NCBI RefSeq assembly: GCF_018283645.1
Contig: NZ_JAGSXH010000063.1
Location: 1 to 35,730 of the forward strand
Length of the DNA stretch: 35,730 bases
Reading direction: 5' to 3'
Source of the DNA: Actinocrinis puniceicyclus
GTDB lineage: Bacteria; Actinomycetota; Actinomycetes; Streptomycetales; Catenulisporaceae
The notes beneath the pieces are model-generated. The model was not told the DNA's origin and searched no databases. It worked only from the letters and a program-made list of their open reading frames with translations. The position numbers and the translations under genes were made by a program. Within the stretch, counting starts at the first letter, position 1, and each line of letters begins with the position of its first letter. Positions 20,679 to 25,504 of the stretch are shown piece by piece.

Positions 20679-22904
20679 TCAACCGACGCGGGTGCCCTCG
20701 CGCTCGGGCGCCCGCGGCGCGCTTTCGGCCGCCTCTTGCGCCGCCGCGCCCGCACCCGAGCCGGCAGCCGCGTCGTCGTCGTCCGTCTCGCGCCGCGCCG
20801 GGCAGGGCTCGATCCGCAGGATCCGCGCCGCCCACACCGGCATCCACCAGTTCCACCGGCCGAACAGCGAGATCAGCGCGGGCACCAGCAGCGCCCGCAC
20901 GACGGTGGCGTCCAGCAGGATGCCCGCGCCCAGCGCCGTGGCGAAGATCTTCACGTCCGTGCTCGGCGCCGAACCGAGCGCGGCCATGGCCAGGAACAGG
21001 ATCAGCGCCGCCGAGGTGACCAGCCGCCCGGTGCGCCCGATCCCGGTCACCACCGCCCGGCGGGTCGAGCCGGTCGCGTCGTACTCCTCGCGCATCCGGG
21101 CCAGGATGAAGACCTCGTAGTCCATCGAGAGCCCGTAGAGGAACGCGAAGACCATCAGCGGGATCCAGCCGGTGATCGCGCCGGTGGCCGGGATGCCCCA
21201 GATCGCGTTGGAGCCGTGGCCCTTCTGCCAGACCAGCACCAGCACCCCGTAGACCGCGGCGAGCGAGAGCAGGTTGAGCGCCACCGCCTTGAGCGGCAGC
21301 ACGATCGACCGGAACGCCCGCGCCAGCAGCACGAAGGTGAGCAGCCCGAGCAGGGCGAGCATCAGCGGGAAGGTGCCGTAGACCGCGTGGATCAGGTCGA
21401 CCTCGACCGCGCCGAGACCCCCGGTCATCGTCCCGGGCACGGCGGCCAGCGCCCCGCGCAGCGCCCGCGTCGTGTTCTCACCGGCCGTGCTGGTGCTCTC
21501 CGCGGTCGGCACGGCCAGCACCAGCGAGGAGTCCGGGCGCGTCCAAGCGGCGCCGCTCGGCGTCGCGGTGAAATCGATGCCTGACACGCTCGCCGCGGTG
21601 GACGCCACGGTCGCGGTCGAGGCGCTCTTGGGCACGTAGAGCTCGAGCGGGGTCAGCACGCCGGTGGGGATGCCCGCCTGCCGGAGCATGAGCACGCCTT
21701 CGTGCGCCGGACCGCTCTGCGCCAGCGAGTCGGAGGAAGGGTCGCCGATCTTCAGGCCGGTGGTGTTGAACGCCAGCACCCCGAGCACGGCCAGAGCGCC
21801 GAGCGCCGCGATCCATCGCCGCCGCACCACCAGGTTCGCCCACGCGGTCCAGCTGCGGGAGGCCTTGTCCTCGTGCCGGATGCGGGGCCAGTCCAGGCGC
21901 TTGCCGATCCCGGACAGCAGGGCCGGGACCAGCGTGAGCGTCACGCACACGGACACCAGCGGGATGATCATGCCGCCGAAGCCGATCGAGCGCAGGAACG
22001 GCACCGGCAGCACGACCAGCGCGAGCAGGCCGAGGGCAACCGTGACGCCGGAGAAGGCGACCGCGCGGCCGGCGGTGCTCATCGCGCGGTGCACCGCGGT
22101 GTCGTTGTCGTAGCCGTGTGCCAGTTCCTCGCGCCAGCGGGTGACCAGCAGCAGCGAGTAGTCGATCGCCACGCCGAGCCCGATCAGGCCGACCAGGAAC
22201 TGCACGATCATCGACACCGAGGTGATCTCGGTGACTGCCAGGATGCCCAGGAACGCGGTCAGCACCGAGACGGCGGCGACCAGCAGCGGCACCAGCGCGA
22301 GCAGCGACGCGAAGACGAACAGCAGCACCGCGAGCGCGCCGATGCCGCCGATCATGATCTCGTTGAGGATGCTCAGACCCTTGCCGGACCCCGAGCCGGC
22401 GTTCTGCAACTGCTGCTCGCCGGTGATCCGCACCGTCGAGCCGGCCGGCAGCGCGGCGGTCAGCCGCTGCTGCACGGCCGCGGAGATCTGGTCCTGCACC
22501 TTACCGGTGGCCATGCCGCCGACGCCGGGGGTGAACACCAGCGCGAAGGTGGTGCGCCGGTCCGAGCCGATGAACTTCGCGTCGCCGGTGTTCGCGTAGT
22601 CGGCGATGCGCGTCTGCGGGATGTCCGCCAGCGCCCCGAACGCCGCGCTCACCCGCGAGCCGTCGGCCGGCACGCCCGCCGGCAGCTGCGCAACAGCCAC
22701 GAGCGGCGCGCCCATGCCGCCGTTGCCGTATTCGGCGGCGATCGCCTGGTTCGCCGTGTAACTCGGCTGGCCGGGCATCGAGAACGTCTTGTCGAGGTGG
22801 TTGGACAGCGTGCTGGACGCCGCGATGCCGGCGACGAACGCGACGAGCCACAGGCCGTAGATCCACTTGCGGTGCGCGGTGACAAAGGACGAGAGCCTGT
22901 CCAT
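20679..22904 (-). CDS. MMPL/RND-family membrane transporter
   Basis: Proton-driven transporter of the MMPL type, which exports lipids or hydrophobic compounds. From ATG 22904 it has 741 residues in two similar halves. Each half has one N-terminal helix, a large extracytoplasmic domain (CPGQPSYTANQ-like start; second near GLKIGDPSSDSLAQSGPAHEG) and a five-helix bundle. Typical motifs are GLGVAIDYSLLLVTRWREEL in the first half and FAFLYGLSMDYEVFILARMREEYD in the second, which hold the proton-relay Asp-Tyr pairs. The last 45 residues are acidic and Ala-rich. ATG 22904 has a strong AGGAGG (complement of 22917-22922) 12 bases upstream. The same reading frame continues upstream without a stop into the kinase, so the protein may also exist as a kinase fusion. 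Confidence 0.9.
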   Translation of the reverse strand: MDRLSSFVTAHRKWIYGLWLVAFVAGIAASSTLSNHLDKTFSMPGQPSYTANQAIAAEYGNGGMGAPLVAVAQLPAGVPADGSRVSAAFGALADIPQTRIADYANTGDAKFIGSDRRTTFALVFTPGVGGMATGKVQDQISAAVQQRLTAALPAGSTVRITGEQQLQNAGSGSGKGLSILNEIMIGGIGALAVLLFVFASLLALVPLLVAAVSVLTAFLGILAVTEITSVSMIVQFLVGLIGLGVAIDYSLLLVTRWREELAHGYDNDTAVHRAMSTAGRAVAFSGVTVALGLLALVVLPVPFLRSIGFGGMIIPLVSVCVTLTLVPALLSGIGKRLDWPRIRHEDKASRSWTAWANLVVRRRWIAALGALAVLGVLAFNTTGLKIGDPSSDSLAQSGPAHEGVLMLRQAGIPTGVLTPLELYVPKSASTATVASTAASVSGIDFTATPSGAAWTRPDSSLVLAVPTAESTSTAGENTTRALRGALAAVPGTMTGGLGAVEVDLIHAVYGTFPLMLALLGLLTFVLLARAFRSIVLPLKAVALNLLSLAAVYGVLVLVWQKGHGSNAIWGIPATGAITGWIPLMVFAFLYGLSMDYEVFILARMREEYDATGSTRRAVVTGIGRTGRLVTSAALILFLAMAALGSAPSTDVKIFATALGAGILLDATVVRALLVPALISLFGRWNWWMPVWAARILRIEPCPARRETDDDDAAAGSGAGAAAQEAAESAPRAPEREGTRVG

Positions 22905-24605
22905 GGCGCCTGATCCCCTCCTACTCCCGTGATCACGCGCCGGCTCTGTACGCGGCGCTTCATCCGAGAGCGAACCAGGACCGCCTGGCGTGGCACTGTG
23001 TCCTTGCTGTGAGAGCCCTGTGAGAGCTGGTACGTCGTTTTTCGCAATGTTCTCATCGGCGCCGGCCAGGGAACCCTCGACGGGCAGCGTCACCGTGAAC
23101 ACCGCGCCGCCGCCGGCCGCCGAACGCACCTCGGCCCTGCCGCCGTGCGCCGCCGCCACCGAGGCCACGATGGACAAGCCGAGCCCGGAGCCGCCCGCCG
23201 CGTCGCCGCGCTTGCGGGAGGCGTCCGCGCGATAGAAGCGTTCGAACACCCTCGCCTGCTGCTCCGGCGTCAGGCCGGGACCGGTGTCGGCGACCTCGAT
23301 GACCGCGTCCTGCCCGACCCGGCGCACGCTCACCGACGCCGGCGTCCCCGGCGGCGTATGCGCGCGGACATTCGAGAGCAGATTCGCCAGCAGTTGCCGC
23401 AGACGGTCGGCGTCGCCGCAAACCTCCACGCGCTGCGCGGCCGCGTCCACGCCGACGCCGTGCGGTTCGTCCTGTTCCTGCTGCTCGGCGCGCACCGTCA
23501 CCTCGACCGGCCACTGCGGTCCGGCCGCCTGCGAGTCGCGCGCCGCGTCGCGGGCCAGCGCCCCGAGGTCAACCATGCCGCGGCCCAGCGGCCGGCCCGA
23601 GTCCAGCCGCGCCAGCAGCAGCAGCTCGTCGACCAGCACACCCATCCGCGCCGACTCCGACTCGATGCGCCGCATCGCCAGCGCCAGATCCTCCGGCCGC
23701 GAGGCCGCCCCGCGCCGGAACAGCTCCGCGTAGCCGCGGATCGAGGCCAGCGGGGTGCGCAACTCGTGCGAGGCGTCCGCGATGAAGCGGCGCAGCCGCT
23801 CCTCCGAGGAACGCTGCTCCTGGAAAGCGCGCTCCAGGCGTGCCAGCATCGCGTTCACCGAAGCGCCGACGCGGCCGACCTCGGTCACCACGTCCGAGGG
23901 GTCGACCCGCCGGTCGAGCTCGCCCGCGCCGATCGCCACGATCTGGTCGCCCATCCGCTCGAAGGGCTCCAGGTTCCGCTTGATCCGCCGGTTCGCCATC
24001 ACCCCGACCATGCCGAAGGCCAGCAGCAGGGCGACGAACTCGATCCAGCCCACCGAGCTCATCGTGGTGTTCAGGTCCTGCTGTGAAACTCCGAGAATCA
24101 GATAGCCGCGCCCTCCGGGCAGCTGCGAGGCGCGCAGCCGGAACGCGTATCCGGGATGCACACTGCTCCCCGAGTCCGCGCTGAACAGCGTCGCACCATC
24201 GTGCTGTGGACCGGAGTGGGGCGGACCGAGCTTCAGCTGCGCGGGCAGTGCGGGCTCGTCGCCTCGCGCCGCCTTGAACACGATCCGGTTGTGCGGGTCG
24301 CGCACCTCGATGAAGATCGGCAACAGGCCGGTGTCGGTCATCAGGCGCCAGCTGGACTGCGCGTCCTTGGATGCGTTCAGATCCAGCGACTTCCCGAGCG
24401 GCTGCTGTGCGGCGTACTTGTTGAATAGCTGGGCGGTGCCGTTCAGCTGCGTGTCGAGCCGGTCCTGCATGACCGTGTGCACGGCGAAGAACGTGCAGAG
24501 GGCCGCCACCGTCAGGCCGAGCGCGAGCCTCGTCAGCAGCGTGTGCAGCAGCCGCTTGCGCAGCGTTCGTGCGCGGTGGACGCGCGGGAGCCGAAGTCTG
24601 CACAT
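22905..24605 (-). CDS. Sensor histidine kinase (frame remains open into the MMPL gene; no own stop codon)
   Basis: Membrane sensor kinase partner of the regulator upstream. From ATG 24605: helix 1 (about residues 21-46), a periplasmic sensor of about 140 residues, helix 2 (about 187-210), HAMP, the HisKA box with the phospho-accepting His280 in ADASHELRTPLASIRGY, and an HATPase domain with N box (RLRQLLANLLSNVRAHTP), DTGPGLT and GGSGLGLSIV. The kinase fold ends near residue 515 (AVFTVTLPVEGS). The next 52 codons are non-conserved and of intergenic character, yet contain no stop; the frame enters the MMPL protein at residue 568 and ends at 20679, for 1308 residues in all. Coordinates here cover the kinase part only. 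ATG 24605 overlaps the regulator's end: its AAGGAG lies in the last codons of that gene. Confidence 0.85.
22996..23022. promoter_or_regulatory. Three CTGTG repeats at 11-bp spacing upstream of the MMPL gene
   Basis: CTGTG occurs at 22996, 23007 and 23018, exactly 11 bases apart; on the minus strand they read as CACAG. The array ends 91 bases upstream of the MMPL start. One helical turn per repeat is the classic layout for tandem OmpR/PhoB-type regulator dimers. A matching array lies ahead of the response-regulator gene. Confidence 0.65.
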
Positions 24606-24608
24606 CGG

Positions 24609-25316
24609 CTACTCCTTGGGCAGCCGCAGCGAGTATCCGACGCCGCGGACCGTGTGGATCAGCGGCGGCCGCTCGCGGTCCACCTTCTTGCGCAGGTAGG
24701 AGATGTACGTCTCGACCACGTTGTCCCCGCCGCCGAAGTCGTACTGCCAGACGTGGTCGAGGATCTGTGCCTTCGACATGACGCGGCCCGCGTTGAGCAG
24801 CAGGTAGCGCAGCAGCTTGAACTCGGTCGGGGTCAGGTCGAGCAGCGCCCCCGCGCGCCGCGCCTCGTGCGCGTCCTCGTCCAGGATCAGATCCGCGAAC
24901 TCCAGGCGCTCGTCCTCCAGCGCCGGGCGGGTGCGGCGCAGCACCGCGCGGATCCGGGCGATCAGCTCGTCCAGGGAGAACGGCTTGGTGACATAGTCGT
25001 CGCCGCCGACGGTCAGCCCGGTGATCTTGTCCTCGGTCGCGTCCCGCGCGGTGAGGAACACCACGGGAAGCCTCACGCCCTGCGAGCGCAGCCGTCCGCA
25101 CACCTCGATCCCGGTGTAATCCGGCAGCATCACGTCGAGGACGGCCAGGTCGGGTGCGAATTGCGCGGCCTTGCCCAGGGCCTCGCGGCCGGTGCCGGCG
25201 GTGGCGACCTCGAAGCCCTCGTAGCGCAGCGCGAGGCCGACCAAATCCGTGATCGCCGCCTCGTCGTCGACGACCAGGATCCGGGCTTCCGGTTTGCCGT
25301 TCTGGCGCTCGGTCAT
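24609..25316 (-). CDS. OmpR/PhoB-family response regulator
   Basis: Two-component transcription factor of 235 residues. The receiver domain has the acidic pair Asp17-Asp18, the phosphoacceptor Asp61 in LAVLDVMLPD, the Thr in VVFLTARDA and the Lys in DDYVTKPFSLDEL. The C-terminal winged helix carries LDLTPTEFKLLRYLLLNAGRVMSKAQILDHVWQYDF and the wing ETYISYLRKKVDRERPPLIHTVRGVGYSLR. The frame is open another 35 codons upstream, but those codons cover the repeat array and the promoter region, so ATG 25316 (MTERQNGK) is the start. Its stop overlaps the kinase ribosome binding site, giving a translationally coupled pair. Autoregulation through the repeat array is inferred. Confidence 0.95.
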   Translation of the reverse strand: MTERQNGKPEARILVVDDEAAITDLVGLALRYEGFEVATAGTGREALGKAAQFAPDLAVLDVMLPDYTGIEVCGRLRSQGVRLPVVFLTARDATEDKITGLTVGGDDYVTKPFSLDELIARIRAVLRRTRPALEDERLEFADLILDEDAHEARRAGALLDLTPTEFKLLRYLLLNAGRVMSKAQILDHVWQYDFGGGDNVVETYISYLRKKVDRERPPLIHTVRGVGYSLRLPKE

Positions 25317-25379: not shown

Positions 25380-25417
25380 CTGTGCCGTACCTGGGGGATT
25401 CCTGTGAGCCGCCTGTG
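25380..25417. promoter_or_regulatory. Four CTGTG-type repeats at 11-bp spacing upstream of the response regulator
   Basis: CTGTG at 25380, CTGGG at 25391, CTGTG at 25402 and CTGTG at 25413 are spaced exactly 11 bases. The array ends 63 bases ahead of the regulator ATG, followed on the minus strand by TACATACGCT, a possible -10 region. The promoter-proximal unit (CACAGTGGAAC on the minus strand) closely matches that of the MMPL array (CACAGTGCCAC). It is probably the binding site of the regulator itself. Confidence 0.65.
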
Positions 25418-25504
25418 CCACCAGGCAAGCGCCGGAGCGCGCGCGATTCCACAGGTTGTCGTGGAACCGGCCACGCGCCCTACGCGGCGTGGGAAACTGT
25501 GCCC

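Follow-up and report, generated by a model that had tools for sequence, protein, structure and literature searches.

Actinocrinis puniceicyclus carries a sensor histidine kinase and a transporter of the MMPL family joined in one reading frame. In the window, by which is meant the whole 35,730-nucleotide stretch of DNA analysed, translation of the open reading frames gives an uninterrupted minus-strand frame from the ATG at 24605 to the stop at 20679, and its 1308 codons encode a histidine kinase (HK) and a complete MMPL exporter with two repeats, separated by a linker of about 59 codons; the extent of the frame given in an earlier note, made from the letters alone, was thereby reproduced. Our reading, to which we give a probability of roughly 60%, is that the join is genuine and probably old, and that the DNA of the linker doubles as a promoter region through which the response regulator (RR) controls the exporter. 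The sequence leads one to expect two products: the RR-HK transcript would give a kinase-MMPL fusion, and the operator and ribosome binding site within the linker would give a free MMPL. The locus runs PepN, a DsbA-like gene, MMPL/HK/RR, RpiB and a PP2C-like gene (PepN was named by NCBIfam, the remaining neighbours by inspection), and its features are collected in Table 1.

Table 1. Features of the kinase-exporter locus, in window positions.
Feature	Position	Strand	Basis
HK-linker-MMPL single ORF, 1308 aa	20679..24605	-	translation and Pfam
Sensor histidine kinase part, residues 1-508 (HAMP, HisKA, HATPase_c)	23082..24605	-	Pfam and motifs
Linker, ~59 codons, intergenic-like DNA, GC3 0.58	22905..23081	-	composition, shuffles, structure model
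MMPL (MmpL3-like RND exporter) part, residues 568-1308	20679..22904	-	Pfam, PDB relative, motifs
OmpR/PhoB-type response regulator (RR)	24609..25316	-	PDB comparison, recognition helix
Three-copy PhoP-box-like array TCACAGGGCTCTCACAGCAAGGACACAG, 11-bp period, inside linker	22996..23023	-	
Shine-Dalgarno AGGAGG, 12 nt before MMPL ATG	22917..22922	-	
Second PhoP-box-like array upstream of RR gene, in RR-RpiB divergent region	25380..25418	-	

The two halves of the frame

Both halves have what their families call for. In the kinase part Pfam places HAMP at residues 213-258, HisKA at 271-337 and HATPase_c at 397-510, all above cutoff, and the fold ends at about residue 508. With the phospho-acceptor histidine in an intact HisKA motif (DASHELRTP), the N, G1, F and G2 boxes of the HATPase domain all present and a HAMP domain, it is a HisKA-type sensor histidine kinase, and these motifs are shared with the homologous protein of G013, a genome from another genus of the same family. 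The kinase of the window genome (G000) also has, ahead of the HATPase domain, an insertion of some 19 residues (within EQQEQDEPHGVGVDAAA; window ~23500-23430, minus strand), which is missing from G013.

The exporter half starts at a methionine, residue 568 (window 22904), and PF03176 (MMPL) matches it with 219 bits in two stretches, the best being 610-929. Its two repeats, the Asp-Tyr pairs kept in both transmembrane repeats (GVAIDYS and LSMDYE) and the helical membrane fold in the model make it an MMPL/RND exporter. Among solved structures its best relative is MmpL3 (1e-59). Is it then a trehalose monomycolate exporter, as MmpL3 is? That assignment was rejected: though MmpL3 is the nearest solved relative, the NCBIfam model NF052608 scores 241 bits against an equivalog cutoff of 1400.

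A linker that looks intergenic

The stretch between the two folds had been described as 52 codons of intergenic appearance, with no conserved residues. Its length has to be revised to about 59 codons, taking the fold end at ~508 and the methionine at 568, while its character is borne out, with few shared residues and a third-position GC content (GC3) of 0.56-0.58, where the kinase has 0.91 and MMPL 0.96. In G013 the linker GC3 is 0.72, and in both species it is lower than in every coding window of equal length from the same genes. Between G013 and its sister genome G012 there are 33 alignable linker codons, in which differences at codon positions 1/2/3 number 3/7/5 (7 nonsynonymous, 4 synonymous), whereas in MMPL they number 65/32/203. 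With that substitution pattern the linker peptide appears free of coding-type constraint, and neither this codon comparison nor the alignment of G000 with G013 revealed conservation of the linker at the protein level; judged from sequence, the peptide looks unconstrained in both fusion species.

Structure prediction gives a similar picture. In an AlphaFold2 model built on a 12-sequence alignment (mean pLDDT 75.7) the kinase CA domain ends at ~508 and the first MMPL helix begins at ~566, and from the last kinase strand to that helix, over residues 510-564, pLDDT is below 50, so that the linker of the window protein is predicted to be disordered. In the known families the kinase C-terminal end and the MMPL N-terminal end are both cytoplasmic, and topology is therefore no barrier to joining them. 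A disordered linker, if the model is right, would make an easy target for a protease, and a fused precursor might be made and then cut there to yield a separate kinase and exporter. We consider this rather unlikely: nothing speaks positively for it and no cleavage site was identified, though none was searched for systematically.

Operator-like arrays and a PhoP-like regulator

What the linker lacks as peptide it may make up for as DNA. The operator-like array that had been noticed there, TCACAG-N5-TCACAG-N6-CACAG, is found at this one place in the 6.77-Mb genome, with no match in controls and none in shuffles of the window, and with five other matches across 395 genomes of the class; its first copy sits 119 nt ahead of the MMPL ATG. 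A three-copy TCACAG array is also present in the G013 linker, and in G012 the array lies at the end of the MMPL contig, its third copy having one more mismatch. The ribosome binding site proposed earlier is likewise there, and in G000, G012 and G013 the MMPL ATG is preceded at 12-13 nt by a Shine-Dalgarno sequence, with GGAGG in the latter two.

Which regulator might act on the array? The PhoP box of Mycobacterium tuberculosis consists of direct repeats, TCACAGC-N4-TCACAGC (PMC4832192), and by its repeat and 11-bp period the linker array is PhoP-box-like, a putative site. The RR belongs to the OmpR/PhoB family, and its nearest protein in the PDB is M. tuberculosis PhoP, with 285 bits as compared with 172 for the next. 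Its recognition helix is NVVETYISYLRKK, that of PhoP NVVESYVSYLRRK; of the base-contacting residues of the latter (N212, V213, E215, S216, Y217 and Y220; PMC4832192) all are kept apart from Ser216, which is Thr, and a PhoP-like helix in this family points to a response regulator of the M. tuberculosis PhoP type, which would bind such direct repeats.

The array in the divergent region has four copies (GCACAG/TCACAG/CCCCAG/GCACAG), again with an 11-bp period, and related repeats also precede RR in G013, G012 and two genomes of the g2 group, which suggests, as far as sequence can, that the two-component system is autoregulated. Between kinase and MMPL no terminator-like site was detected, nor did the linker or its surroundings show an Rfam element, which disposes of such an element ending the kinase transcript there. 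The linker yielded no promoter-like site, and the RNA fold z-score, -1.5, is unremarkable.

A second fused frame in another genus

A search of 60 genomes, the window's own and relatives, identified the same arrangement in G013, where RR-HK-MMPL recurs with kinase and exporter in one 1263-residue frame without a stop. Identity between the two fused proteins is 58% overall, 52% in HK and 61% in MMPL, and their linkers differ in length, both being in frame. In G012 the kinase frame is open up to the end of its contig and the MMPL frame is open for 33 codons upstream to the end of its own, with the same box; since the two lie on separate contigs with the gap between them unsequenced, G012 was left out of the fusion count. 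When the whole protein was used to search about 260 genomes no further full-length fusion appeared, nor did one appear in plasmids.

The earlier note had offered two options: that the kinase lost its stop, with a fusion made alongside an internally initiated transporter, or that a base is wrong near the kinase end. For the latter, a missing or extra base near 23060 would mask a kinase stop. The TGA in another frame to which attention had been drawn is present (GATGAG TGA, frame +2, 8 codons past the fold), at a place where the kinase could well end, and the genome is a draft in 430 contigs. However, the independent assembly of G013 is open too, and as its linker is free of stops in all three frames, no single indel could expose one there. 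On that evidence sequencing error was rejected as the main explanation, and we deem it very improbable. The first option, still as a prediction, is supported by the G013 frame, the box and the ribosome binding site. As to the kinase C-terminus in relatives, whose comparison had been called for, G013 is open like G000; the kinases of the g2 genomes stop about 30 codons past the fold and have no MMPL adjacent.

Chance, or selection for the fusion?

A linker peptide that is not under purifying selection could be open merely because stops are rare in GC-rich DNA. The kinase stop would then have been lost by accident, the fused product would be translated with no role of its own, and the free MMPL driven by the operator would do the work. 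Dinucleotide shuffles of the linker are stop-free in a given frame in 30% of cases for G000 and 82% for G013, and when the one-in-three chance of a frame match is included the chance of openness is ~10% and ~27%, respectively. Taken singly, the open linker of G000 is only mildly unusual, and GC3 and substitution pattern are those of non-coding DNA; sister genera that lost a gene on one side or the other have, moreover, kept parts that look intact. The second, diverged case makes the openness more unusual. Two deep lineages, with kinases 52% identical and linkers of unlike length, are both in frame, for which the joint chance is ~3% if they are independent; if instead the frame is ancestral, all later changes of length preserved it. 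Weighing these points we would allow accidental read-through perhaps one chance in three. The joint figure favours maintenance of the fusion, short of proof, and selection for it is plausible.

How the locus may work

On the reading we prefer, that of a genuine join over a regulatory linker, a promoter ahead of RR with its PhoP-type box array would make RR and HK, under autoregulation. As neither stop nor terminator-like site intervenes, translation of the kinase should continue into MMPL: ribosomes translating the kinase would all pass through the disordered linker into the exporter, with a low-level 140-kDa HK-MMPL membrane protein as the outcome expected from the code. The kinase would phosphorylate RR, and RR-P, on binding the three-repeat box in the linker, would boost transcription of MMPL alone, the free protein probably initiating at M568 from its own Shine-Dalgarno, as the conserved box and Shine-Dalgarno imply. 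Acting on both arrays, RR-P would thus raise RR-HK and free MMPL alike, and one stretch of DNA would encode the peptide linker while serving as operator and as the site where ribosomes load. The fusion would probably keep a constant amount of kinase physically tethered to the exporter; that transport state could feed back on the tethered kinase, in the manner of BceS/BceAB flux sensing, is speculation. A stronger version, that the kinase-RND exporter polypeptide was itself selected, with linker DNA that is both PhoP-type operator and start region, providing a switch between a single tethered copy for sensing and many free copies for transport, we put forward tentatively, inclining somewhat against it.

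Comparison with known systems

In M. tuberculosis the PhoP-PhoR kinase is a separate protein. The likeness of the present system to it lies in the RR, nearest to PhoP in the PDB and with a near-identical recognition helix, and in the matching operator repeat and 11-bp period; the difference is that here kinase and MMPL exporter share a frame, which also contains the box. Fusions of transporter and kinase are already known. The CbrA/SLC5 kinases have an SLC5 symporter, with the transporter first and the kinase last, and assignment of the present protein to the SLC5-STAC histidine kinases was rejected as Pfam gives MMPL, and neither SLC5 nor STAC. In CbrA both activities are present in the one polypeptide, and the text consulted describes no embedded operator or internal start (PMC7096432). 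In Amt5 of Kuenenia stuttgartiensis a histidine kinase is joined to a membrane domain of transporter type, though of another transporter family, and there the Amt domain is a sensor without efficient transport (PMC8534201). The BceS kinase reads the activity of an exporter, BceAB, that is induced by its regulon (PMC8534201), but there kinase and exporter are distinct proteins associated in a complex, the exporter being an ABC transporter, and the analogy would be one of function only. The earlier note knew of no described polypeptide with kinase and RND-type exporter, and our literature search, of partial coverage, likewise turned up no relevant paper on an HK-MMPL or HK-RND fusion; a kinase-first one was not found described.

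If the fusion is made and used, transporter-kinase fusions would extend to RND/MMPL exporters, with the kinase first, and the locus would be a simple test case for the sensing of exporter state beside a PhoP-like regulator. An operator and an internal start would, as predicted from sequence, lie inside the frame that encodes the kinase expected to drive that same operator. Even were the fusion incidental, the shared putative sites connect a PhoP-like two-component system with an MmpL3-like exporter in more than one actinobacterial family.

History of the locus and of the wider module

Within the family the parts come in different combinations, of which the window has the full set. The g2 genomes have RpiB and RR-HK, then the DsbA-like gene and PepN, with no MMPL; the g3 isolates have MMPL and RpiB, without RR-HK and without the array. 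Where MMPL is absent the kinase has a stop, and where RR-HK is not adjacent MMPL is an ordinary one. Standalone MMPL orthologues begin at the same methionine, mostly with stops close upstream (in about one in six, by hand count, the frame stays open for more than 150 nt before the start), and MMPL therefore needs no kinase. The HK and MMPL trees concur in placing G012 and G013 together as sister to the G000 group, and because of that agreement a tandem HK-MMPL is most simply ancestral. The simplest history, then, has an old RR/HK/MMPL module in which HK and MMPL became tandem and in frame in an ancestor within the family, some genera later losing MMPL or RR-HK, so that the fused frame is probably old in the family rather than a recent mutation of the kinase.

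G012 has two related MMPL copies (L055, L056/L057), one linked to RpiB without RR-HK and the other with the array at a contig edge; the latter is probably part of an RR-HK-MMPL cassette. Given the RpiB-linked copy, acquisition of the G012/G013 cassette by horizontal transfer or duplication is kept in view as another route.

Further afield the fusion appears as a lineage-specific form of a module found elsewhere as separate genes. Of the arrays ahead of MMPL, those of the three cassettes (G000, G012 and G013) are the strongest; loci with a divergent or nearby RR-HK have weaker forms, and G112 and G258 have arrays of intermediate strength in front of MMPL. In another family (G422 and G297; L120 and L122) a related RR-HK operon diverges from an unfused MMPL, with a weak PhoP-box-like array between them. 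In G450 (L127, 772-5391) distant relatives of HK and MMPL stand in tandem, with a kinase stop and some 160 bp between them, and a Streptomyces chartreusis plasmid (L138) carries MMPL-RR-HK as three separate genes.
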